The translations under genes and the position numbers were made by a program. The notes beneath the pieces are model-generated. The model searched no databases, was not told the DNA's origin, and worked only from the letters and a program-made list of their open reading frames with translations. From Bacteroidota bacterium (GTDB lineage: Bacteria > Bacteroidota > Ignavibacteria > SZUA-365), in contig JACZJN010000184.1 in assembly GCA_014860565.1 (NCBI GenBank), positions 1-38,109 on the forward strand: a stretch of DNA of 38,109 nucleotides. The letters run 5' to 3'. Below are positions 11,248 to 36,256 of this stretch, piece after piece. Position 1 is the stretch's first letter, and each line of letters starts with the position of its first letter.

Positions 11248-11284
11248 CCTCCCAAATTACGGAATATTCGGGAATATCAGGACG

Positions 11285-11440
11285 TTGGCTTTTGGCTTTT
11301 GGCTTTTGGCTTTTGGCTTTTGGCTGTTGGCTGTTGGCTGTTGGCTTTTGGCTGTTGGCTTTTGGCTGTTGGCAGTTGGCCGTTGGCTTTTGGCTTTTGG
11401 CTGTTGGCCAAGGTCCAATAGCCAATAGCCAATAGCCAAT
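11285..11440. repeat. Heptanucleotide tandem repeat tract that switches strand polarity
   Basis: Eighteen in-phase 7-nt units run from 11285 to 11410, mostly TTGGCTT or TTGGCTG, the last being TTGGCCA. After a 4-nt spacer (AGGT) the units continue as CCAATAG three times plus CCAAT (11415-11440), which is the same TTGG core read from the other strand. The tract fills most of the 208-nt gap between the radical SAM stop and the mlaE start. The TTGGCCAA centre and the opposed GCCAA/TTGGC units could fold into hairpins. Frames through it encode low-complexity peptides only (for example LLAFGFW repeats), so it is treated as non-coding. Confidence 0.95.
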
Positions 11441-11455
11441 GTCGCAGCGCGACGC

Positions 11456-15944: not shown

Positions 15945-17266
15945 TTCACCCGCGTCTCCCGCACCGCGCGCAGCATCGGGGGCGTGAGCCAGGCGTTTGC
16001 GGCGAGACGTCCGGCCATCAGGGCGATAGCCGCGGCGACCGCACCCACCGCATCGAAGACGAGGATCGCGACCGCAAGCGTGATGATGATCACGCTGACT
16101 TCCAGCACGGTTGCCAGCGTCACGGGGCCGGTGCGTTTCGTCGCCACGAGCACGGAACGCTGGAAGGAGAGCAGCACCGACGTCCCGGGCATCAGCACCA
16201 GCAGCTGCGCTGGAAGTATCGCGAAAGCGGCGAGCAGGGGAGAAAGCCCTGAAAGATCGAGAAACCAGAAATCCGCGAGCGGCGTCATCGCGATGCACGC
16301 GAGCCCCGCGACGGCGGCGACGCCGAGTCCCACGGCAAAATTCCGGACGACGCGAAAATGTTCCATATGCCTGCCGAAACGGGCGATGGCAACTTCCTGA
16401 TACGACAATCCGAAGCTGCGGAAGAGGAACACCAGGGAGGTCACCACGGGCATCACGGCGAGGGATTCGAGCGGCATGCGCGATTGACCGAGAAAGAACG
16501 TGACCATCGGCTGCACGCCGAGTGCGAGGATCGACGTCATGGCGAGGGGATAGTAAAAAGAGAAAATCGAGCGATAGCTCATGGCGGCGGTCGGATCGTC
16601 TGCTCCATGCAGGAGACGGTGGATGGTCCTCCGCACCATGAGGCGACTCGCCACCGCTTCGATGGTCACGCCGGCGGCGAGCGCGGCTCCTCCCACGGCG
16701 GCACCCGGGAGATCGGTCAAGGTGGCGGCGAGGACCGCCGTTCCCGACATCGAAACAAGCCGTATGATGGTGCCGTAGGCAATGCGGCGGGTGAGGTTGT
16801 GACGGATGAGGAGTCCCTGGTAGAATCTCCGGAATCCGATTGCGGCTGGCCATGGCAGCAGCAGCGCCGTCGCCAGATGCGTCAGCCGTTCGACTTCGTC
16901 CGGGAGGCCGATCAGGTCGCTGGCAATAAACGAGAATACCGGGGGTATGATCACTATCAGCATGATGACGGTGATGCCGCCGTTGAGCATCAGGGTGAAA
17001 TTGCGCAGGCGGAGGTAGGAGGTCCGATCCGAAACAAGCGCGGTGGACGCGCTCATCATCATGATGATGGGCGATTCGACCAGGAGCGCAAAGGAAAAGG
17101 CCACACCGTAGGCGGCGAGATTGAATTTCGGATCCGCCAAGCGCGCGATGACCGCCGCGAGGAAGGGTCCTTCGACGGACATCATCAGCCAGGTCGCCAG
17201 CATGGGGAGCCAGAATACCAGCAGTGTCCGTGTGGTCACGGAGCGATGTTCGGATGCGTGGGGCAT
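15941..17266 (-). CDS. MATE/MOP-superfamily membrane protein (flippase or exporter)
   Basis: A 441-residue polytopic protein with about twelve hydrophobic segments arranged as in MATE/MVF-type (MOP superfamily) transporters. Segments include TLLVFWLPMLATWLMM, LAAYGVAFSFALLVESPIIMMM, a loop with RFYQGLLIRHNLTRR, and FLFRSFGLSYQEVAIARFGRH near the middle. The acidic ARLADPKFNLAAYG motif in helix 2 recalls MATE proteins. It may move a lipid-linked molecule or a drug; no substrate can be assigned. The start at ATG 17266 lies inside the end of a 93-codon ORF, and the stop overlaps gatB. A truncated paralogue sits at 19821-20144, 69 of 77 residues identical at the N terminus. Confidence 0.82.
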   Translation of the reverse strand: MPHASEHRSVTTRTLLVFWLPMLATWLMMSVEGPFLAAVIARLADPKFNLAAYGVAFSFALLVESPIIMMMSASTALVSDRTSYLRLRNFTLMLNGGITVIMLIVIIPPVFSFIASDLIGLPDEVERLTHLATALLLPWPAAIGFRRFYQGLLIRHNLTRRIAYGTIIRLVSMSGTAVLAATLTDLPGAAVGGAALAAGVTIEAVASRLMVRRTIHRLLHGADDPTAAMSYRSIFSFYYPLAMTSILALGVQPMVTFFLGQSRMPLESLAVMPVVTSLVFLFRSFGLSYQEVAIARFGRHMEHFRVVRNFAVGLGVAAVAGLACIAMTPLADFWFLDLSGLSPLLAAFAILPAQLLVLMPGTSVLLSFQRSVLVATKRTGPVTLATVLEVSVIIITLAVAILVFDAVGAVAAAIALMAGRLAANAWLTPPMLRAVRETRVK

Positions 17267-19820: not shown

Positions 19821-20144
19821 TTATACATTCAGCAGACTGACGTAAGAACAGTGCTGTCCAGGACGTTTGAGATTGTATAGGTAATTGAGAGTCTTGAAGA
19901 AGATCTCGATCTGCAGCGCGGTGGACGCGCTCATCATCATGATGATCGGGGCCTCGACCATCAGGGCGAAGGAGAATGCCACGCCGTATGCCGCGAGATT
20001 GAACTTCGGATCCGCAAGGCGTGCGATCACTGCCGCGAGAAAGAGTCCCTCGATCCACATCATCAGCCAGGTCGCCAGCAACGGCAGCCAGAAGACGAGC
20101 AGCGTCCGTGTCGTCACGGTGCTATGTTCGGATGCGTGGGGCAT
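19821..20144 (-). pseudogene. Truncated N-terminal copy of the MATE-like flippase gene
   Basis: From ATG 20144 the frame encodes 77 residues aligned without gaps to the start of the intact flippase at 17266, 69 of them identical (MPHASEH through SASTAL). At base 19914 the similarity stops abruptly, and 30 unrelated codons follow to a stop at 19821. About 360 residues of the family are missing, so the product cannot be a transporter. The copy shows synonymous and conservative changes from the intact gene, so it looks like an older tandem paralogue that was cut when the accessory DNA between 17518 and 19913 arrived or when its tail was deleted. The 5' flank differs from that of the intact gene. 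Confidence 0.85.
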
Positions 20145-25326: not shown

Positions 25327-25531
25327 GCGAAAAATCCGGCCGGAATCCGTCGCGTCGAGATTGCCTCGGCGACAGCTGCGCAGCTGCCATGGAATGCTCC
25401 ACGGACGATGAGCGGAATCGACAATGGCTTCGTGGAGGGTTATTTTGGTGTCTGTAACAAAACTGAATGTGAGGTGTTGCTATGCTGAAACGTGCACGGA
25501 AGGTGTTACGATATTCGGGTTGGAGACAATA

Positions 25532-28500
25532 ATGTATCGTAGGCTGCTTCTTTCGATTCAGATGTGTGTTGTCTGCTGTTTTCTTATACACAGTTCATGG
25601 GCAACAGGAAACCCGAAAATTGAGGGGATACCGTCGCCGCGGCTGTTTGCAAGGAATATCGGGTCATGGGATAACAGGGTGCTCGCTGCCAGCATCGGCT
25701 TTGGGGGCACCATTTCTTTTGGAAAGAGCGGGTACCTTGTTGCAGCAGATGCGAATCATTCCCTCAAGGAGAGTGGATCGGCTCAACCTTGGCCGGGATT
25801 GCGCTTCATCGATGGTAATCAAGGGGCGCGTATCGTGCTGGTTGAGGATGCCAACGCGCCATTGAGATATTATAGTGGAGCGCACAATCCTTCGCAGGTG
25901 AAAGGTCAGAAGCAGTACAGAGTCCTGACATATCGCGATGCATGGGTCGGCGTGGATATCGAAATCAGAGGTACGACGTCCTCAATGCAGCATACCGTTA
26001 CAATCGATCCCACACGCGCCCCTGAGGCTGTCCGACTTCGTTTCGACAATGTTGCCGTCGAACAGTTGCAGCTACGGTGTACGGCGAAGGAGCAGGTATA
26101 CGCCGTGCAGGAATCGGGTGGTGGGGTGGAAGTCGTACTCTTTCCCGTTGCGGCGCCGACCGCGTTTACCGTCAGTATTGGATTTAATTTCTATTGGGGT
26201 GGTACTGGGGCTGAGAGTGAGATGGGGAATCAACTGCAGCTTGACCGACGTGGTGATCTTCACCTGACCGGTACGACGAGAGCCCCGGATTTCCCGTTCA
26301 GTCCTTCGTCACAGGCAGACTGTTTGCAGTATTTCCTTCGTTTCTCACCGGATGGGATACAACTTTACTACAGCAGTTTTTTTCATGGTTGCAGTTTTGA
26401 GAATGCCATCGGGTTGGGAGCGGATTCCGAGAACCGCATGTTCGCAGTACTGCGTGACGCAAACTATGCGGAGGTGCTCACTCCTGATGCACAGTATCGG
26501 AGTCGGATTGGACAAGCAACTGGAGCGGCGATGCTGCTGCTGGACACCACGGGGGCGCTCGTGTATGGTTCGGCCTTGCCCGAGGGATCCCGAGGCACTG
26601 ATTCTACGTTTTTTCCTCTTGATGCCAGATTGGACCGGGACGGGAACGCGTATATCATGGCGCTGATCAACTATAATCCGGCCTGTCTCACTCCGGATGC
26701 CATGTCCCCCGTAGGGATCGGAGGCTGGGACGGACTCCTGATGAAATTCGATGCGCATACGCATCGGCTGACATACGCCACCTGCCTCGGAACCGCGGCG
26801 GATGACCACTTCGAGTGCTTCGCCGTCGATGGCTGCGGTGGCGTTGCCTACCTGAGTTCCCGTTACGACAGCACGGTATTGCGTGAAGATTCCGTGACAA
26901 CCGGCTGTTACGTCTTCGATGTTGTCCGGCTCACCGCGGACTGCCGTCACTACCTGTTTCAACGCGAACTGATCGGCTGGGGAGACCATGATTTGAGACC
27001 CGGTTCTGGTTTGGAGCTCCGTTTCCATAGCAGGAGAATGGAATTCGATGCTGATGACAACCTGTATTTCGCAGCTACCACACGGGATAATCGCTTCCCG
27101 GTCGTCAGGGGGCTCCCTGTGTTCGCATCATCTCAAAACTCGAAAGTCGTCGCCGCGAAGCTCTCACGAAAAGGAGAGATTCTCTATTCAACGTATTATT
27201 CCGGCAATGATCAAATGTGGGTGTATGCTCTCACCGTTGACAATTGCGGTACCATGATGTTGAGCGGATGGGTCGGGTGGCTGGCTACACCCGCTCCGTA
27301 TGGACTCCCGATGGTCAATCCGGTTTCCGTCAGCGGGAACCGCTACCTCGCGGTGTTCGATACGCGTTCAGGAACGCTGGAATTCAGCACGCTGCTCGGA
27401 TTCATGGACTGGCACTGGGGCGGGGGCCTGGTGCTCAGCGATTCCGCGCTGTACACGGTGGCGCATTCCCATCCAACGCTCGCCGATATTCCCCTTACAG
27501 CCGGCATGCATCCACACTCGGGCGGAACCCATCAAATGGACCCCATGATCACGCGACTGGATATGCCGCAGCTATGTGGGAAGGAGCGCTACCCGCAGCC
27601 TCGGCCTGACATCGCGCAGCTTGTCACGACGCTGCATTGCACGGATACGATTCGCATCGACCTTCGGCGGAGGAAGATTTCCCCTCCCCTCATCCATGTC
27701 AGCGCCTCGATATCGAACACCAGCCTGCTCCATCTCGCGGACTCCTTCGACCTTCATCTCGGCCTGTCGCACCCGCTGCAGCGAGGGGCCGGATCCTCTC
27801 CGTTCAGCGCGCGTCTCGGGAGTCCGGCGCCGATGGACAGTGTACTGCTCGACTGGTATCTCGAAACGAGCCTTGACGCCATCGCGCCTGCCGGCACCGT
27901 GCGTGTCACCTTGACCGGGAACTCGGGCGGAAGCTGTCCTGTCCCTATCGATTACAGCGTCGACATTCCGGTGAAATACATCGACGATCCTGATGGCGAA
28001 ATCAGCTGCTCAATATTCGTCACTCCACAGCTTGCCGTGAAAACCGACAGAACGCGACTGCAGCATGACACTTTGCTTGTCTCCCTGCAAATCCGCAACC
28101 GGTTCCCTGCTCCGGCCCCGCTCGCCTCGGCTTCCCTGAACTGGCCGCGCGATGTGGGACTCACACTGATCGAGCCGCTGGATTCCGTGCAGGTCCCCCC
28201 TCTCGTCCCCGCATATGGCGAGGTGACGCTACGATGGAAATTCAGTGTCACTTCCTGGCCCTTCGGGAGGCCGCTGAAGTTTTCAGCGGTCATTGTCGAT
28301 ACGTTTGGAATAGAAATGTCCTCCTGTTCATGGGAGGGCGATATCCCCGGAACACCAGGCAGCATATGCATCCTCACGCTTCCGGATCGAGTGAGCTACC
28401 GGGCGGACGACAGCACATCACAGCCCTATCCCGTCATCGCGGAGCTCACAATTGAAAATCCCTGTGATTCAATCAGGCCATATACCGATATCCGGCTCGA

Positions 28501-30436
28501 TTTATCCCGTGCATTGCATCTCCGGCTGCTTCCTGGAGAATCACCGCGCAAGAGTGATACGACGATTGCGGAACGGACGTCGTGTAGCTTCACATGGAAT
28601 CTGCGTGTTTATCCTCCTCCTCGCGAGAGCGGTGTGGAGGAGGTCACGGTGCGATATCGCACAAACGCAGACACCGTGGGGCACGAATGTACTGCCATCC
28701 TGCGTCTCCAGCTTCTCTCCGCAGCGTTGAGCTGTGAACTGGACGGACCGGATTCGCTGCACATCGATGTGGGGCAGGGAACGTACGTGTCGGATACGGT
28801 GGTGGTTGTCAGCACCATACGCAATTCAGGTGTGCTCCCGCAGCCGATGGGAGCTGTCCGTTTGGAATGTGATCCACTCAATGGTGTCATTTTCCTTGAT
28901 TCCGCCGTGAAGTCCCTTCCGCGGATTGATCCCGGGAGGGAGGCCCAGGCGCAGTGGAGGTTGCAGTTCCCCCGCCTGCCATTCACGCAGATGTTCACCT
29001 TCACAGCGGTTGCAGAGGCTGCTGATGGAGGTTCTCTCACAACATGTCTGCATCGGATATACGCCCAGGCGTTCCCGCTGACGTGCCAGGTCTCGAGTGT
29101 GGATTCGGTGCACTACAACGCAGTGACAGGGAGCTTCGACCCTGTATCGTTGGTGGTGACCGCGCGTTTCGAGAACCGGAGCGACACCGCGCTGACGAAC
29201 CTCGGTGCAGTCCTGGATACCTCTCTGCTTCAGCGAGTTCATCTTCTGGATCCTTCCCGGACCGAACAGATCCTGGCGAACCTACCGGGCGGACAGATAT
29301 GGGAGGTTTCATGGCTACTGGAACCAACCTTGGGAGAACAGGCGATTGAGGAACGCGTACGGGTGCGATTCCATGCAGCGGAGATTGCATCCACGACGCT
29401 TTGTGAAGCAGTGGTCTGGATCGATGGTGAAGAGCGTCTGGTAGGTCTGCATTGTGCAACCGACGGACACGACACGCTGTACGCGGATGGATACTACGAG
29501 CGGTTTATCCCGGATCCGCTGCATGTGTCCTACACCGTGACCAATACCGGGACCGTGCCACTCACTGGCTGCGAGGCAGCGATTATACTTCCCGCTGAGC
29601 TCGTTCTTGCCACTGCGGACAGCATACAAAGCTTCACCGCACCGGAGTATGGCAACCAAACAGGCGGTCCGGTAACGGAAGGGACACTGCTCCCGGGCGC
29701 CTCTTGCACACGTTGGTGGCTTATCTCACCGACGAAAGCCCTCACGCGTCAGGATCCCCTGGAACTCCGCTGGAGCTGGGTGAGCGATGAGCAGGGAAGC
29801 GGTCCAGGCTGCAGCCGTACACTGTGGATCAATCCGGATGTGCCACCGAGCATCGTGCTCACGCCATTGCATCTGCATTTTGAAGCGGAGAAGGGCGGAC
29901 CGCTCCCGACCGAACAGAATGTCCAACTCTGGACAGGTGGCGGAGTCTCGATGCCCTGGACTGCCCAGCCATCCGAGTGGTGGCTCGACGCGCGACCGGC
30001 GGGTGGTAGTCAGTCCACACAGATCGCGATGCAGCCGAACAGCACGATGCTCGATGTCGGTGCGCATGGCGCGAATCTACAGTTCACCACAACGCCGACG
30101 GACCGCCTTGTGGAAGTGACGTATGTCATCCGCAAGAGCACAGGCATCAGCGAGCCACAGGCGCCGGGAACGTTTACCCTCGACGCTTGGCCGCAGCCGG
30201 TGTCGGCGGGAGGGCGGCTGAGCATTCGCATTGATGGATCAGCAGGGGAGGACTACTGCATGACATTGTACGACCTGCTAGGACGTAAGCATGCGGAACT
30301 GCTGACGAATGCAGGAAAGAATGTGACTATCGATGCAGATGCATCGCAGTTGACACCCGGCGTGTATCTCCTCCGCGCCGTCTCTGCGAACGGCGCACAG
30401 GCGACACGGATGATCTCGGTGACGGGAGGACGCTGA
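25532..30436 (+). CDS. Very large T9SS-secreted protein with beta-propeller and tandem Ig-like repeats
   Basis: A 1634-residue protein. ATG 25532 follows GGAG and starts a signal peptide (YRRLLLSIQMCVVCCFLIHSSWA). Residues to about 690 resemble SBBP-type beta-propeller proteins (repeats such as LTGTTRAPDFPF, LDRDGNAYIMALINYNP and LTVDNCGTMMLSGWV). Then come about six repeats of roughly 115-128 residues, each opening with a Cys and an acidic beta strand (near residues 698, 826, 943, 1066, 1183 and 1305), Ig or CARDB-like. Next is a BACON-like domain (SIVLTPLHLHFEAEKGGPLP) and a T9SS type A sorting domain in the last 85 residues (LDAWPQPVSAGG, LYDLLGRKH, LTPGVYLLRA). Likely a cell-surface or released adhesin-like protein. 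It is monocistronic and divergent from the feo operon. Confidence 0.85.
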   Translation: MYRRLLLSIQMCVVCCFLIHSSWATGNPKIEGIPSPRLFARNIGSWDNRVLAASIGFGGTISFGKSGYLVAADANHSLKESGSAQPWPGLRFIDGNQGARIVLVEDANAPLRYYSGAHNPSQVKGQKQYRVLTYRDAWVGVDIEIRGTTSSMQHTVTIDPTRAPEAVRLRFDNVAVEQLQLRCTAKEQVYAVQESGGGVEVVLFPVAAPTAFTVSIGFNFYWGGTGAESEMGNQLQLDRRGDLHLTGTTRAPDFPFSPSSQADCLQYFLRFSPDGIQLYYSSFFHGCSFENAIGLGADSENRMFAVLRDANYAEVLTPDAQYRSRIGQATGAAMLLLDTTGALVYGSALPEGSRGTDSTFFPLDARLDRDGNAYIMALINYNPACLTPDAMSPVGIGGWDGLLMKFDAHTHRLTYATCLGTAADDHFECFAVDGCGGVAYLSSRYDSTVLREDSVTTGCYVFDVVRLTADCRHYLFQRELIGWGDHDLRPGSGLELRFHSRRMEFDADDNLYFAATTRDNRFPVVRGLPVFASSQNSKVVAAKLSRKGEILYSTYYSGNDQMWVYALTVDNCGTMMLSGWVGWLATPAPYGLPMVNPVSVSGNRYLAVFDTRSGTLEFSTLLGFMDWHWGGGLVLSDSALYTVAHSHPTLADIPLTAGMHPHSGGTHQMDPMITRLDMPQLCGKERYPQPRPDIAQLVTTLHCTDTIRIDLRRRKISPPLIHVSASISNTSLLHLADSFDLHLGLSHPLQRGAGSSPFSARLGSPAPMDSVLLDWYLETSLDAIAPAGTVRVTLTGNSGGSCPVPIDYSVDIPVKYIDDPDGEISCSIFVTPQLAVKTDRTRLQHDTLLVSLQIRNRFPAPAPLASASLNWPRDVGLTLIEPLDSVQVPPLVPAYGEVTLRWKFSVTSWPFGRPLKFSAVIVDTFGIEMSSCSWEGDIPGTPGSICILTLPDRVSYRADDSTSQPYPVIAELTIENPCDSIRPYTDIRLDLSRALHLRLLPGESPRKSDTTIAERTSCSFTWNLRVYPPPRESGVEEVTVRYRTNADTVGHECTAILRLQLLSAALSCELDGPDSLHIDVGQGTYVSDTVVVVSTIRNSGVLPQPMGAVRLECDPLNGVIFLDSAVKSLPRIDPGREAQAQWRLQFPRLPFTQMFTFTAVAEAADGGSLTTCLHRIYAQAFPLTCQVSSVDSVHYNAVTGSFDPVSLVVTARFENRSDTALTNLGAVLDTSLLQRVHLLDPSRTEQILANLPGGQIWEVSWLLEPTLGEQAIEERVRVRFHAAEIASTTLCEAVVWIDGEERLVGLHCATDGHDTLYADGYYERFIPDPLHVSYTVTNTGTVPLTGCEAAIILPAELVLATADSIQSFTAPEYGNQTGGPVTEGTLLPGASCTRWWLISPTKALTRQDPLELRWSWVSDEQGSGPGCSRTLWINPDVPPSIVLTPLHLHFEAEKGGPLPTEQNVQLWTGGGVSMPWTAQPSEWWLDARPAGGSQSTQIAMQPNSTMLDVGAHGANLQFTTTPTDRLVEVTYVIRKSTGISEPQAPGTFTLDAWPQPVSAGGRLSIRIDGSAGEDYCMTLYDLLGRKHAELLTNAGKNVTIDADASQLTPGVYLLRAVSANGAQATRMISVTGGR

Positions 30437-30699
30437 GTGTGGAGGATGCGATGACAGATGTTCTGATCTCCTTTTTGTCCCCACCCAAAATCCCCGTTTT
30501 TCACCTTGATTCGTCTGATCGGATTAACAGGATTCAGGCGAGTTATCAAGCGCGCTAGACAAAAAATCTCGCGTGTTTGAAGCGGTGACTCACGATTGGA
30601 TGCAGTCAAATCCGGTCTGCAATTGCACCGGGATTGCAGTCAGATCGCCCACCAGCGTGTCGCTGAAAACGATTGCCACAAAACGAGTTACTGGTATTC

Positions 30700-30852
30700 G
30701 CGAATGTGGCGAAATTGGCATACGCGCGAGACTTCAGATGTAGCGCGTTTTTTGCGTTTAACAAATTATTTCAAGCACTTACGCTGAAATTTGTCTCGGG
30801 AATCGCTCTGATTTCCGGAGAACTTGACTAATAGGGAGCAGGTTAGGCAATA
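30700..30852 (+). repeat. tRNA-Leu-derived repeat, copy 1
   Basis: The first 40 or so bases follow the 5' half of tRNA-Leu (acceptor 5' strand, D-arm, part of the anticodon arm) with a few changes. The remaining 110 or so bases are unrelated to the tRNA but match copy 2 at 32464. The two 153-nt copies align without gaps, with 134 identical positions by eye. The tRNA 3' half is absent, so no tRNA can form. Confidence 0.85.
30722..30753 (+). terminator. Terminator-like hairpin in tRNA-derived repeat copy 1
   Basis: ACGCGC (30722-30727) can pair with GCGCGT (30743-30748), followed by a T run to 30753. The left arm is part of the tRNA-derived half and the right arm is the sequence that replaces the tRNA 3' half. 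Confidence 0.55.
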
Positions 30853-30896
30853 CCTCAGAGATAGTGCTGCCCCTGGGAATACTCAAAATCATCGCG

Positions 30897-30984
30897 AACC
30901 TTTCAATTGGCCGCACGCAAACCTTTCAAATGGACGAGATGTAAACTTGCATCTAGCCGGGTATTAACCTTTCATTTCGCCGCA
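30897..30984. repeat. Three copies of a 19-nt repeat AACCTTTCAnnnnGnCGCA
   Basis: Copies at 30897-30915, 30920-30938 and 30966-30984 share AACCTTTCA and, in two of three, a CCGCA end. A fourth copy is at 35971-35989 upstream of the intact tRNA-Leu. They lie 45-130 nt before the AAA_14 start. They might be protein-binding sites or a decayed repeat element. Confidence 0.7.
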
Positions 30985-31028
30985 TAATTTCGTATCTATT
31001 GTCATTACTTCACAACGGATGACAGGCC

Positions 31029-32270
31029 GTGAAGCTTCTGGATCGATTCGCGACGACGAAAGTGCACGAGGCGCTGCTGGACACGCCCGTGGTGCTGCTG
31101 CATGGTCCGCGGCAGTGCGGCAAGAGTACGCTTGCCCGCATGATCGTCTCGGAAAAGAACTACTCGTATTTCACATTCGATGACGAAGTGCAGCGTGAAG
31201 CCGCGCAGAATGATCCAACAGGCTTCATCCTGAATCTTCCGGAGTATGTCATCATCGATGAGGTGCAGCGCGTACCTGAGATTTTTTTTCCGTTAAAGTC
31301 CGAAATAGATCGCAATCGCGTCCCTGGAAGGTTTGTCCTCACCGGTTCAACCAATATCCTACTGCTTCCTACGCTGTCCGACTCTCTGGCCGGACGCATG
31401 GAAATCCTACGTTTGCATCCGTTTTCGCAAGATGAAATTCTGGGCAAACCTTCGCGATTTCTGGACCGTGTATTTCAGGCAGACTTTCGCTCAGGCACGG
31501 GTGGGGAACGTCTCGGCACAAATCTCGCCGAGCGCATCGTGTCTGGAGGCTTTCCTGCTGCAATCGATCGTCCGTCATACCATCGCAGGCAAGCCTGGTA
31601 TAGGGATTATATAGAAACGATTGTTCAGCGAGATGTGCGTGCGCTGGCAAGAATCAGTTCCCTGGATGCGTTACCTCGTTTGCTGCGCCTGGCAGCAGGG
31701 CAGACGGCGCATCTTGTCAACATTTCGGAAATGGCCAGTGCTTTCCATTTGAGCAGGCCCACGATACAGGACTATGTGACATTATTGGAGCGGATATTTC
31801 TCCTCGAACACCTATCCCCCTGGCATACGAATCGTTTGAGCAGATTGATCAAATCACCGAAACTCCATATGACGGACACCGGCCTTGCGTCCGCACTCCT
31901 TGGTGCGACTGTCGAGACCCTGAGTCGTGACCGTGCACTGTATGGGCAGATGCTCGAGACTTTTGTATTCCAGGAACTGAGAAAGCAGGCCAGCTGGTAT
32001 GACGTCCCCATCGGATTCAACCACTTCCGTACCAAGGACGGCGTGGAGGTAGATCTTGTGTTGGAGGGAGGACATTCCACTCTGGTCGGCATCGAAGTGA
32101 AATCCGCCGCGTCGGTCTCTGCACGGGATTTCCGCGCTTTGAAAAAACTGCAGTCCGCATCGGGTGACCGTTTTGCCGCCGGCATCGTCCTGTATGATGG
32201 TGAGCATATCGCACCGTTCGGGGAAAAACTGTATGCAGTGCCGCTGCGGATGCTTTGGGAGATGGAATAA
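31029..32270 (+). CDS. AAA_14/DUF4143 family ATPase (COG1373 type)
   Basis: A 413-residue protein. Walker A GPRQCGKST (26-34), Walker B YVIIDEVQRVP (Asp77, Glu78), a sensor-like FVLTGSTN, and AGRMEILRLHPFS are standard for COG1373 ATPases. After a winged-helix segment (ISEMASAFHLSRPTIQDYVTLLE) comes the C-terminal DUF4143 region with GVEVDLVLE and GIEVKSA (about 338-357), which resembles a PD-(D/E)XK nuclease core. Role unknown; the family is common in mobile and variable regions. GTG start at 31029. It stands alone, flanked on both sides by tRNA-Leu-derived repeats, which suggests it arrived as a cassette. Confidence 0.9.
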   Translation: MKLLDRFATTKVHEALLDTPVVLLHGPRQCGKSTLARMIVSEKNYSYFTFDDEVQREAAQNDPTGFILNLPEYVIIDEVQRVPEIFFPLKSEIDRNRVPGRFVLTGSTNILLLPTLSDSLAGRMEILRLHPFSQDEILGKPSRFLDRVFQADFRSGTGGERLGTNLAERIVSGGFPAAIDRPSYHRRQAWYRDYIETIVQRDVRALARISSLDALPRLLRLAAGQTAHLVNISEMASAFHLSRPTIQDYVTLLERIFLLEHLSPWHTNRLSRLIKSPKLHMTDTGLASALLGATVETLSRDRALYGQMLETFVFQELRKQASWYDVPIGFNHFRTKDGVEVDLVLEGGHSTLVGIEVKSAASVSARDFRALKKLQSASGDRFAAGIVLYDGEHIAPFGEKLYAVPLRMLWEME

Positions 32271-32463
32271 AACAATCACGAAACAAGGTGCCGATATGGC
32301 GACGCGTGACGAGCGAATGTTGCAGGCAGACGCCGGAAATACTTTCATTCAGGCAAGGCCTCGGCACTAGTATTCAACTTTTCGTCCCCCACCCGAAAAT
32401 CCCGTATTTTAATATGATTCACCCGATCCGTCCCGCTCGAAGCGGCGACGGAGGCGCAGCTAC

Positions 32464-32616
32464 GCGAATGTGGCGAAATTGGCATACGCGCTAGACTTAG
32501 GATGTAGCGCGTTTTTTGTTTTTATCGAATAATTTCAAGCTCTTACGCCGGAATCTGTCTCGGGAATCGGCCTGATTTCCGGAGAACTTGACTAAAAGGG
32601 CGTTGGTTAGTCAATA
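32464..32616 (+). repeat. tRNA-Leu-derived repeat, copy 2
   Basis: The first 40 nt are identical to the 5' end of the intact tRNA-Leu at 36138, through the anticodon loop. Sequence then diverges into TAGCGCG and a T run, and continues into about 100 nt shared with copy 1. Upstream, 32379-32437 matches the tRNA-Leu promoter region (36054-36113) almost exactly, including TATTTTAA. A transcript from there would be about 100 nt long and carry a tRNA half. Confidence 0.88.
32486..32517 (+). terminator. Intrinsic terminator inside tRNA-derived repeat copy 2
   Basis: A perfect 8-bp stem, ACGCGCTA (32486-32493) with TAGCGCGT (32505-32512), 11-nt loop, then T residues to 32517. The left arm and loop are tRNA-Leu D-arm to anticodon sequence; the right arm replaces the normal 3' half. 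Confidence 0.7.
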
Positions 32617-32705
32617 TGAACGTTCACGGCAAGCAGTAGCGCGTAACCTGCGCAGCATTTGTGTTGTCATCTTGCGAAGTATGCTACCACGGAGTGTATC
32701 GAAAC

Positions 32706-34328
32706 ATGTCGTATCTGGACAAATTCACCGGTGATTGGAATTCCGCCCAAGCCAGGCATTTGCTTCGAAGAACGACCTTCGGCCCACCGCAGGGTGCCGT
32801 GGAACACAGCGTGCAAATCGGTCTGGACGGCACGCTCGATACGCTGTTCTCCGCCGGAAACGTCCCCGATCCCCCGCTGAAGTATCACCCCGATGGCTCG
32901 GGTTCGAATGCGCTTGATGATCCCGGTGCGAAACAGGGCGAAACCTGGGTCAATGCCGACCCCTTCCCCAATGTCAATCCGCCCATGCTGCGCAATCGTA
33001 TCATTCGCGCACGCAGCAAGTCGCTTTACGCGTGGACCATCCTGCAGATGCACAAGGCGGGAATCTCCATTCGAGAAAAGCTTATTCTCTTCTGGCACAA
33101 TCATTTCGTGATCACATCCGTGATTCCGCAGCGGGAATACATCTATCACATGCTGCTGCGTTCTCATGCGCTGGGGAATTTCCGGCAGTTGACGAAGGAC
33201 ATCACCATTGATACCGGCATGCTGTTGTACTTGAGCGGGGCAGAGAATATCAATGCGGCGCCGAATGAGAATTACTCGCGTGAGTTGCTGGAGCTCTTTA
33301 CTGTCGGGAAAGGTCCGCTCATCGGTCCCGGGGATTATACGAACTATACCGAGACAGATGTCATCGAGATAGCCAAGGTACTGACGGGCTGGAGAGTGCC
33401 CCGTGTCTCCGACCCGGATACGCTCATTGCGTCCTTCGACAGCCGCCTGCATGCGAATGGGGACAAACATCTGTCGAAACACTTCGCGGACGCCGTGATC
33501 GCTGAAAACGGTGAGAATGAATACAAGGATATCATCGATGTGATTTTTCAGCAGGATGCATGCTCGCGCTTCATCATGCGCAAGCTGTATCGCTGGTTCG
33601 TCCATTCGGACCTCACACCTGAGGTGGAACAGCATATCATCGAACCGCTTGCGCAGCAGGTCCGTGCGGATGAGTATGACATTGCTCCTGCATTGAGAAT
33701 GCTGCTGTCTTCCGCGCACTTTTTCCAGTCGACAGCCTGCATGATCAAGAATCCGCTCGACCTGTTGCTCTCCGCCACGCGGGCGCTCGGAACGGAACCA
33801 CCGAAGAACGGGGTGCAGCAGGAATACGAGCACGCCTATGACCTGTACGCCATGGCCTCTGAACTCGAACAGGCGATGTTCAATCATCCTGACGTCGCAG
33901 GATGGAAAGCTTACTACCAGGAACCGGGCCTGGACCGCATGTGGCTCAACAATCTGCTGCTCCCGAAAAGGCATGAACTTTGCCGGGCCGTCGTTGAGGG
34001 AGGGACGGTAACCATCGATGGCGACGACTACAGGATTCCGGCAATGGTACCCGTGTTGGAACTGGCGGCGGGTATCCCGGGCGCCGCAGACATCAGCGCT
34101 CTCGTGACGGGACTGGCGGAGCGGATGTTCAACTATCCGATATCGAGCACACAGCTGACGGCACTGAAGGACATCGTGCTGCAGGGATTGCCCGACTATG
34201 AATGGGCGGACGAGTACGGTGCGTACCTCGCCGATCCGGCCAACGATGCGCTGCGTGTTCCCGTGGAAAACAAGCTTCGCAGCCTGCTCTCCGTCATGAT
34301 GGGTATGTCAGAATTCCAGGTGATGTGA
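32706..34328 (+). CDS. DUF1800 family protein
   Basis: A 540-residue protein beginning MSYLDKFTGDWNSAQARHLLRRTTFGP, the standard DUF1800 opening. Other family motifs are KLILFWHNHFV, LLYLSGAENINAAPNENYSRELLELFTVG (the NENYARELMELHTLG region), VLTGWRV, KHFADAVI and KLYRWFVH. No clear signal peptide is seen, although many relatives have one. The family is uncharacterised but is regularly encoded next to DUF1501, as here with a 2-nt gap. I start at ATG 32706; the in-frame codons before it are not conserved. It probably works with the DUF1501 protein in the envelope or outside the cell. Confidence 0.9.
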   Translation: MSYLDKFTGDWNSAQARHLLRRTTFGPPQGAVEHSVQIGLDGTLDTLFSAGNVPDPPLKYHPDGSGSNALDDPGAKQGETWVNADPFPNVNPPMLRNRIIRARSKSLYAWTILQMHKAGISIREKLILFWHNHFVITSVIPQREYIYHMLLRSHALGNFRQLTKDITIDTGMLLYLSGAENINAAPNENYSRELLELFTVGKGPLIGPGDYTNYTETDVIEIAKVLTGWRVPRVSDPDTLIASFDSRLHANGDKHLSKHFADAVIAENGENEYKDIIDVIFQQDACSRFIMRKLYRWFVHSDLTPEVEQHIIEPLAQQVRADEYDIAPALRMLLSSAHFFQSTACMIKNPLDLLLSATRALGTEPPKNGVQQEYEHAYDLYAMASELEQAMFNHPDVAGWKAYYQEPGLDRMWLNNLLLPKRHELCRAVVEGGTVTIDGDDYRIPAMVPVLELAAGIPGAADISALVTGLAERMFNYPISSTQLTALKDIVLQGLPDYEWADEYGAYLADPANDALRVPVENKLRSLLSVMMGMSEFQVM

Positions 34329-34330
34329 AT

Positions 34331-35920
34331 ATGGACAGCAAGTGCAGCATTTCTCGTAGGGATTTTTTACGGCTGACATCATTCGCGTCGGTCCCGCTTC
34401 TGCTCGGCCGCTTCCCACTTTCCATCCACGGCGCGCCGCGCATATCGGCGAGCATGACAGAGAGCGACAGGGTGCTCGTGCTCGTGCAGCTGCAGGGGGG
34501 CAATGACGGACTCAACACCCTTATCGATCTCAATCAGTACTCCGCCCTGCAGGCCGTTCGCGGAAATCTGCTCATACCGGAACAACGTGTGCTTGATCTC
34601 GAACACGACGGTTTCGGCTTTCATCCGTCCATGACCGAAATGAAAGAGATGTGGGAGCGCGGCACGCTCGGGATGATTCAAAACGTCGGGTACCCGGATC
34701 AGAACCGCTCACATTTTCGCTCCACCGATATATGGAACAGCGGTTCTGCCGCGGACGAGTATCTCAGGACCGGCTGGATGGGCCGGTATTACGACCGGGA
34801 CTTCGCCGGCTATCCCGCCGGTTATCCCACGCCCGGACAGCCGCATCCCTTTGCGCTCACGATGGGAAAGAGCGTCTCGGAAACCTGCCAGGGTGCGACG
34901 GCCAATTACTCGCTTGCTCTGGAGGATCCTTTCAACCCGGGAATGGCCCTTGTCGGAGCGCAGGGCGACATCCCCGCGGACTGCTACGGGGATGTGCTGA
35001 CCTTCGTCAACGACACGGTCAGGCAGACCAACGCGTACGCCGAAGCGATTCGTCAAGCAGCGGAGGCGGGGAACAACCTCTCCACGAAATACAGGGAGGC
35101 CGGGGACACCGCGCTCGCCACTGCACTCAAGCATGTGGCGCGACTGATCTCAGGGGGATTGCAGACGCGGCTCTACATCGTCCAGCACGGGGGATTCGAC
35201 ACGCATGACAACCAGGTGGTAGCAGGAGCGACGGATACGGGCAAACATGCAGAACTGCTGCTGGAGCTCTCTGATGCCATCGCGGCTTTCCAGGACGATG
35301 TTGAACTGCTGGGCCTCAGCGGACGCGTGCTCGGGTTGACGTATTCTGAATTCGGTCGCCGCATCCGCTCCAACGCTGGTCTCGGCACCGACCACGGGAC
35401 GGCAGCCCCTCATTTTCTTTTCGGCTCCTGCGCGAAAAAGCAGATTCTTGGTGACGCACCCGAAGTCGATGCACAGGCAGGCATAGAAGACGGCGTGCCG
35501 ATGCAGTACGACTTCCGCAACATGTTCGGAACCCTGCTGCATCAATGGCTCGGCGCGAGCGCGGGAGAAGTATCGAGCCTGCTGCTGTCGAGCTATGCAC
35601 CGCTGCCGATCATCCGTGAAAGCTGTGTCAGTGCAGCGGACGTCCGTCAGCAGCGCGAGGTCGCCGTCGGCGAGTTCCACCTCTACCCCAATCCTGCCCG
35701 CGATTATGTTAGCGTGAATGTCACGGGAAGCGGGGAGCAAATCACCCTGCGCCTGTTTGATGGACTCGGCTCCATCGTGCGTGAGGTCGCCTCACACAGG
35801 TTTGCACCCGGTCAGCATAGCCTGAAGCTCCCGCTCCTTGGCCTTCCGGTAGGGACATATTACCTGCACTATGAGTCCATGGGACGCACGCGAAGCCGCA
35901 GGTTCACCAAGATTCGCTGA
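34331..35920 (+). CDS. DUF1501 family protein with Tat signal and T9SS sorting domain
   Basis: A 529-residue protein. The N terminus carries a twin-arginine motif (SISRRDFLRL, Arg9/Arg10) and a hydrophobic stretch, so export in folded form by Tat is expected. The core shows DUF1501 motifs: VLVQLQGGNDGLNTLI, HPSMTEMKEMWERG, GYPDQNRSHFRS, QHGGFDTHDNQ and LTYSEFGRRI with DHGTAAPHF, related to the alkaline phosphatase/sulfatase superfamily. The last 80 residues form a T9SS type A sorting domain (FHLYPNPARDYV, FDGLGSIVRE and LPVGTYYLHYE). The long open frame upstream overlaps DUF1800 and is not coding; ATG 34331 is 2 nt after that stop. Substrate unknown. Confidence 0.92.
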   Translation: MDSKCSISRRDFLRLTSFASVPLLLGRFPLSIHGAPRISASMTESDRVLVLVQLQGGNDGLNTLIDLNQYSALQAVRGNLLIPEQRVLDLEHDGFGFHPSMTEMKEMWERGTLGMIQNVGYPDQNRSHFRSTDIWNSGSAADEYLRTGWMGRYYDRDFAGYPAGYPTPGQPHPFALTMGKSVSETCQGATANYSLALEDPFNPGMALVGAQGDIPADCYGDVLTFVNDTVRQTNAYAEAIRQAAEAGNNLSTKYREAGDTALATALKHVARLISGGLQTRLYIVQHGGFDTHDNQVVAGATDTGKHAELLLELSDAIAAFQDDVELLGLSGRVLGLTYSEFGRRIRSNAGLGTDHGTAAPHFLFGSCAKKQILGDAPEVDAQAGIEDGVPMQYDFRNMFGTLLHQWLGASAGEVSSLLLSSYAPLPIIRESCVSAADVRQQREVAVGEFHLYPNPARDYVSVNVTGSGEQITLRLFDGLGSIVREVASHRFAPGQHSLKLPLLGLPVGTYYLHYESMGRTRSRRFTKIR

Positions 35921-35989: not shown

Positions 35990-36055
35990 GATTCGTGTGT
36001 GGTAATCCACATCCGGGAACGTCCTTCGCAGGAACGCAATGACTGAATGAGCATT

Positions 36056-36087
36056 TTTGTCCCCCACCCGAAAATCCCGTATTTTAA
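36056..36087 (+). promoter_or_regulatory. Bacteroidota-type promoter of tRNA-Leu
   Basis: TTTG (36056-36059), 20-nt spacer, TATTTTAA (36080-36087), close to the TTTG-N19-21-TAnnTTTG pattern. It lies about 50 nt before the tRNA 5' end. The same block is copied near 32379 (TTTG changed to TTCG) and partly at 30472. Confidence 0.55.
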
Positions 36088-36137
36088 TATGATTCACCCG
36101 ATCCGTCCCGCTCGCGCGGCAACGGAGGCGGCGTTGC

Positions 36138-36221
36138 GCGAATGTGGCGAAATTGGCATACGCGCTAGACTTAGGATCTAGTGGGCTTAGTCCCGTGGGG
36201 GTTCGAGTCCCCCCATTCGCA
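36138..36221 (+). tRNA. tRNA-Leu, anticodon UAG
   Basis: An 84-nt cloverleaf with acceptor GCGAATG pairing with CATTCGC, a D-arm, an anticodon stem CTAGA/TCTAG around loop CTTAGGA with anticodon TAG (36172-36174), a long variable arm as expected for leucine (class II), a T-arm GGGGGTTCGAGTCCCCC and discriminator A at 36221. CCA is not encoded. It reads CUA and, by wobble, other CUN codons. The 5' half has two partial copies at 30700 and 32464. Confidence 0.97.
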
Positions 36222-36256
36222 CGAGTTTCATTATCACCTTACACAGAGGATCCATC

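Follow-up and report, generated by a model that had tools for sequence, protein, structure and literature searches.

Probable traces of successive insertion at the anticodon loop of tRNA-Leu(UAG): tandem integrase-free cassettes in a Bacteroidota family

Why would a bacterial genome carry, ahead of an intact tRNA gene, two displaced copies of that gene's 5' half, one on either side of an ATPase gene? The question is raised by a stretch of 38,109 nucleotides from a Bacteroidota bacterium (contig JACZJN010000184.1 of assembly GCA_014860565.1; hereafter the window), for which a sequence-only reading had offered two answers, namely a family of tRNA-mimic small RNAs or the scars of repeated insertion at the tRNA locus. 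Our analysis favors the scars. More specifically, we assign a probability of about 0.87 to the proposal that two cassettes entered the tRNA-Leu(UAG) anticodon loop in succession through site-specific recombination. The case is built from sequence comparisons, i.e., the break points and their flanks, the cassette boundaries held in common, the match to a rebuilt empty site, the distribution in the family, the cassettes shared between genomes and the order of decay.

All features of the array lie on the + strand. The two near-identical elements beginning with the tRNA-Leu(UAG) 5' half, as first described, are borne out as a 154-nt repeat (30699-30852 and 32463-32616) of 88% identity, copy 1 retrieving copy 2 with an E-value of ~1e-49 in a search of the whole genome. 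Before the break, the displaced half of copy 1 (30700..30738) agrees with the intact tRNA-Leu(UAG) (36138..36222, from the tRNA annotation) at 36/39 nt and that of copy 2 (32464..32502) at 39/39 nt; the earlier claim that the first 40 nt of copy 2 equal the tRNA stands too, the match reaching nt 40 when the letters are read by eye. Both copies then leave the tRNA sequence at the 3' edge of the anticodon loop, which comprises nt 33-39 because the anticodon starts at nt 35. For these two copies the break was judged on the letters, as BLAST continues to nt 44 via a chance match. The segment that follows, here termed X (X1, 30739..30852, the shared end of cassette A; X2, 32503..32616, that of cassette B; both from the repeat comparison), comprises ~114 nt common to both copies and ends in the inverted repeat TTGACTAA - 11 nt - TTAGTCAA (32588-32614 in X2). 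The whole-genome search, with three real places in total, all of them inside the window, located X at no further site of this genome.

Each half is preceded by a promoter block. That upstream of copy 1 (30472-30520) is a 76% match and opens a long leader (30472..30699 together) with 69-77% identity to the leader of the intact tRNA-Leu in the related genomes G003, G005, G008 and G009 (G000 being the genome of the window). The right end of cassette A (32379..32463) consists of a promoter block with a short leader, as does the right end of cassette B (36054..36137, by sequence match), which now precedes the intact tRNA. Copy 2 does keep the tRNA promoter block, as had been proposed, with 98% identity over 61 nt between 32379-32439 and 36054-36114.

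Read from left to right, the locus comprises a DUF7948 gene, a promoter block with the long leader, half 1, X1, an AAA_14/DUF4143 gene, a promoter block with a short leader, half 2, X2, a DUF1800 and a DUF1501 gene, a promoter block with a short leader, the intact tRNA-Leu and tig. From their position, we take the genes beside tRNA-Leu to be tig and clpP. This layout resolves into two complete tandem units, cassette A (1,764 bp) and cassette B (3,674 bp), each made up of X, cargo, promoter and tRNA 5' half; their terminal promoter-and-half stretches are 93% identical over 129 nt. The cargo of cassette A is an AAA_14/DUF4143 ATPase (31029..32270; Pfam) that, by its match to the PADLOC model PDC-S01 (E 4e-168), is a candidate phage-defence protein; PDC-S01 is itself a predicted defence type, and most PDCs are described as awaiting experimental validation (PMC12988326). 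Cassette B carries a DUF1800 protein (32661..34328; Pfam) and a DUF1501 protein with a C-terminal sorting domain (34202..35920; Pfam, NCBIfam). Directly 5' of the first promoter block lies the DUF7948 gene (25424..30436, 1670 aa; Pfam), possibly the cargo of a third, older cassette, the left end of which was not found. The last ~1 kb of its DNA matches both the 3' ends of DUF7948 genes located just 5' of the promoter block in the tRNA-Arg cassettes of G008 and a relict 5' of tRNA-Leu in G005.

Across the window and its relatives, most cassettes have a single gene or a single operon as cargo, drawn from AAA_14/DUF4143, DUF1800 with DUF1501, BNR/sortilin-type proteins, a two-component system with an RND exporter, DUF7948 giants and AbiEi/AbiEii; no transfer family was seen in the subset of cargo frames searched. 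Some further repeats were recorded in the window. The motif AACCTTTCA with a GCCGCA-like tail recurs three times at 30893-30984 and, by eye, once more at ~35971 near the right end of cassette B, these being possible binding sites. Elsewhere, there is a direct repeat of 230 nt with 85% identity (17037-17266 and 19915-20144) and a tandem array of a TTGGCTN-type heptamer (11271-11443).

If the array arose by insertion, removal of the cassettes should restore a recognizable tRNA locus. We rebuilt such an empty site by script, fusing the sequence that ends at the copy 1 break with the 3' portion of the intact tRNA gene. Across its junction, the rebuilt site aligns without interruption, at 74-80% identity, to the tRNA-Leu loci of G003, G005, G008 and G009. 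With copy 1 left unjoined, the alignment to these four relatives stops at about the break, and the present tRNA region aligns with them mainly within the tRNA itself. Hence, the leader before copy 1 is the counterpart of the leader of the intact tRNA in the relatives, with 5.4 kb now intervening. G005 has the same modules in another order, viz., AAA_14, a relict X, the 3' end of a DUF7948 gene, the long leader and the tRNA; for this reason the long leader may be cassette-borne as well. The promoter block is peculiar to these loci: a pattern allowing ≤3 mismatches gives 12 matches in 6/12 family genomes, and by coordinates every one of the 12 precedes tRNA-Leu(UAG), tRNA-Arg(UCU) or one of their displaced halves, which ties it to these two tRNAs and rules out a general tRNA promoter of the clade.

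The same arrangement recurs well beyond the window. We searched 61 genomes by similarity to tRNA-Leu(UAG) and tRNA-Arg(UCU) only, reading the matches outside the family in part; the family itself comprises 12 genomes, mostly fragmented MAGs. Displaced 5' halves with a non-tRNA continuation are present in at least 7/12 family genomes, with 16 pieces read (a further match in G009, at a contig end, was left out of these). They lie at tRNA-Leu in G000 (2), G007 (3) and G008 (2), and at tRNA-Arg(UCU) in G008 (5, on three contigs) and in G005, G001, G002 and G003 (1 each). All 16 are 5' halves, and no displaced 3' half of either tRNA was encountered in the loci scanned. The break falls at nt 39 or 40 in 14 of them, at 37 in a piece on contig C24 of G008 and at 43 in the G003 piece, so that all 16 break points, at either tRNA, fall on or close to the 3' boundary of the anticodon loop. 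Further, at least four different X ends, some unrelated in sequence, adjoin the same halves. The presence of copies in relatives, where they behave as remnants of attachment sites, rules out the one-off duplication that the sequence-only reading had expected should no relative carry them. In G001, a segment of 253 nt (upstream flank and tRNA 5' part) is 98.8% identical on two contigs (L041 and L090), one of which runs into a displaced half and X and the other into an intact tRNA-Arg; either the flank is duplicated within the cassette or occupied and empty alleles are combined in the MAG.

These observations are accommodated by a simple scheme, which thereby upholds the earlier suggestion of repeated insertion at the tRNA locus. 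Each cassette would consist of X, cargo and a tRNA promoter with a tRNA 5' half. Upon insertion, the incoming promoter and 5' half would join the 3' half of the host, and the tRNA would remain whole on account of this joining; in the window, the 5' half of the intact tRNA would thus be cassette-borne and its 3' half host-borne, as read from the annotation and the loci of the relatives. The previous promoter and 5' half would be displaced upstream to abut the X end of the newcomer, and repeated insertion would generate a stack of displaced halves, the older ones farther from the tRNA. If the newcomer always adjoins the intact tRNA, the far halves should therefore be older, and far halves are indeed more decayed than near ones in 3/4 arrays. 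Identities to the intact 5' half over 39 nt run, from far to near, 36 and 39 in the window; 35, 38 and 39 in G007; and 36, 37, 39, 39 and 39 at tRNA-Arg of G008, given an assumed order of contigs C4 and C24. The tRNA-Leu array of G008 (38 and 38) has no trend.

Could such arrays instead have been built by segmental duplication, or by homologous recombination between tandem promoter-tRNA stretches, without any site-specific integration? The terminal stretches of cassettes A and B are similar enough to recombine, the order of modules differs between the window and G005, and two DUF7948 genes of G008 (L042, 405-5531, and L082, 5772-10961) are 88% identical over their last 1,242 nt, with proteins that are only 40% identical, suggesting, at the sequence level, recombination between cassette ends. 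However, these processes leave unexplained the constant break in the anticodon loop, the involvement of two tRNAs, the four or more X ends and the absence of displaced 3' halves in the scanned loci. We therefore regard them as an improbable origin of the arrays, though they may act secondarily on arrays that already exist.

The alternative of a functional family of tRNA-mimic small RNAs would have a ~100-nt RNA, bearing the tRNA 5' half and ending at the hairpin, regulate the use of tRNA-Leu or a downstream gene. In its favor, copy 2 keeps both the promoter block and a hairpin with a T run, and the non-coding X is 80-89% identical between genera whose tig DNA is 68-77% identical. The hairpin of the original proposal is real in copy 2, where the segment after the break pairs with the preceding sequence (-17.3 kcal/mol, z -1.9); for copy 1, the predicted fold is no more stable than those of shuffled versions (-13.8 kcal/mol, z -0.1). 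Its interpretation as an intrinsic terminator fares less well: a terminator scan lists neither copy, its loop limit of 8 excluding the 11-nt loop, and by eye a stem with a T run is present in 3/7 Leu copies and 0/4 of the Arg copies folded. Against the RNA interpretation as a whole, the hairpin is thus missing from most copies, halves farther from the intact tRNA are more decayed in 3/4 arrays, unrelated X ends adjoin the same halves, Rfam has no match besides the tRNA, and the conservation of X is equally explicable by constraint on a recombination site or by recent exchange. We accordingly consider such a family highly improbable; a short RNA from the promoter of copy 2 is possible as a by-product, as is a terminator effect on the orphaned promoter. 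Under the insertion scheme, the hairpin would be mainly the core dyad of the attachment site and at most secondarily a terminator, because the stem of the anticodon arm already forms a dyad about a loop of 7 nt. A dyad around the core is described as the usual layout for tyrosine integrases (PMC8371274). An origin from a phage or plasmid finds no support: among 72,556 plasmid and 50,697 phage records, none matches a 158-nt query over ≥80% of its length, the matches listed being to the tRNA part, and viral contigs yield 0 matches to the junction pattern.

Which enzyme would insert these cassettes? We infer a tyrosine recombinase, and since the cassettes carry no integrase, they would have been moved in trans or together with a neighbour; an excised circular form was not observed. 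A profile search found a tyrosine recombinase domain in 0/11 complete cassettes; PF00589 has nine matches in G000, none of them on the window contig, and no match inside the arrays of G005, G007 and G008. G001, which has a displaced tRNA-Arg half, holds three tyrosine recombinase matches in its whole genome. On the 5' side of the tRNA, an integrase domain lies 0.6 kb from tRNA-Arg in G003, in a frame whose end resembles a transposase remnant by eye, and an integrase piece containing a stop codon lies 1.1 kb from tRNA-Leu in G004; the ends beside these remnants differ from the X of the window. The G003 integrase was rejected as the enzyme of the whole family, being present in 1/61 genomes. The usual arrangement, with the integrase 3' of the tRNA gene, is seen for four integrases of G000, next to tRNA-Arg(CCT) and three tRNA-Ser genes, in contrast to the 5'-side cassettes. 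G000 also encodes, besides XerC and XerD, a third Xer-like recombinase (L058, G000:C204:7486-7959), and matches with similar scores (74-82 bits) occur in 6/6 relatives searched. Such a resident protein is a conceivable trans-acting enzyme, no more.

Short repeats common to both sides of the core exceed shuffled sequences in 5/8 comparisons, the observed count being reached by 2 (G005), 2 (G008) and 0 (G003) shuffles at tRNA-Arg, by 5 at tRNA-Leu of G008 and by 2 for G004-G007, each of 300. By analogy, these may resemble arm-type integrase sites. For the window's own cassettes, arm-type repeats were rejected as not above chance (173 and 118 of 300 shuffles reaching the count), and the third cassette of G007 taken alone is likewise not above shuffles (240 of 300).

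Cassettes of the same kind are also shared between genera. G007, a member of another genus, has a cassette that agrees with cassette B at both ends and in its cargo, with 80% identity over the half and X, 78.4% over 3,165 nt of cargo and 76% over the promoter and half, as against 70% for the adjoining tRNA-tig-clpP core region. In G004 and G007, again of different genera, 8,581 bp upstream of the same tRNA-Leu are 96.4% identical, with tig proteins at 50%; in G007 this block encodes a P-type ATPase, an HlyD-type and an AcrB-type protein. The exporter/P-type ATPase block of 8.6 kb is situated on contig C59 of G004 and C1 of G007 (L046, L121, L038, L039). At tRNA-Arg, G005 and G008 share 3,241 bp at 91.7%, with tig at 76%. 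With tig as the main yardstick, these gaps in sequence identity between cargo and core point to probable transfer. An observation that speaks against transfer is that the AAA_14 protein of the window is 79% identical to that of G005, hardly above tig at 74%.

Integron cassettes are small, lack a recombinase of their own, are stacked at one site with the newest nearest to it, and carry toxin-antitoxin or defence cargo. The arrays described here are alike in being small recombinase-free units stacked at one site, newest nearest, with defence-type cargo; they differ in that the platform is a tRNA gene and the cassettes carry a tRNA promoter and half. An integron integrase beside the arrays was not found: neither the contig of the window nor the arrays contain a tyrosine recombinase. 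It is tempting, though we rate it as rather unlikely, to extend this parallel to a tRNA-based form of cassette capture, in which cassettes devoid of an integrase would accumulate in this family at the anticodon loops of two tRNAs, tRNA-Leu and tRNA-Arg; every arrival would supply a new promoter and 5' half, and the recombinase would come in trans from a resident Xer-like protein or a helper element.

Among known tRNA-targeted elements, several offer partial parallels. The Islander survey is described as containing 159 islands with a 5' fragment among 3,919, as well as four tandems of three or more, with an integrase required per island (PMC4383910). As in those islands, an intact tRNA lies at one end here, with a displaced 5' fragment of the same orientation upstream and attachment in the anticodon loop; those islands each have an integrase, whereas the present cassettes have none inside them and form stacks of three in G007 and G008. 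In Dehalococcoides, 15 ssrA islands without integration modules are discussed as CIMEs (PMC3146451). The likeness extends to tandem cargo units between copies of the attachment site, the lack of an integration module and the presence of an integrase in some neighbours or relatives; the cited account has a serine recombinase and 3'-end repeats, in contrast to the exchanged 5' half and tRNA promoter here. As our arrays keep att-like ends, have no tyrosine recombinase domain and have no transfer family among the cargo genes searched, they work like CIMEs. The archaeal pTN3-like integrases have an attachment site in the tRNA 5' half, and an element-borne promoter drives the restored tRNA, a situation described as seldom seen in bacteria (PMC8371274). 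Both traits recur here; the archaeal elements contain the integrase that the cassettes lack. Tycheposons, as described in a secondary source (PMC10872708), are tRNA-bounded cargo elements of 4-200 kbp with a tyrosine recombinase; the window cassettes resemble them as cargo-carrying elements bounded by a tRNA gene but measure 1.8 and 3.7 kb and have no tyrosine recombinase. No description of a system of the present kind appears in the literature searched, which comprised titles, the beginnings of abstracts and passages, with subscription papers mostly outside it. Combining a 5'-side position, the anticodon loop, the lack of an integrase, tandem stacking and two tRNAs, the arrays are a variant of tRNA-targeted islands.

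For this poorly studied group of Bacteroidota, the analysis provides precise boundaries for small cargo units and indicates that such units pass between genera at a fixed address. Island finders that demand an integrase per island would miss cassettes of this type. Their insertion would replace the 5' half of a tRNA gene together with its promoter, a mode of integration rarely documented in bacteria, and the PDC-S01 defence candidate and the AbiE pairs sit on the same kind of cassette.
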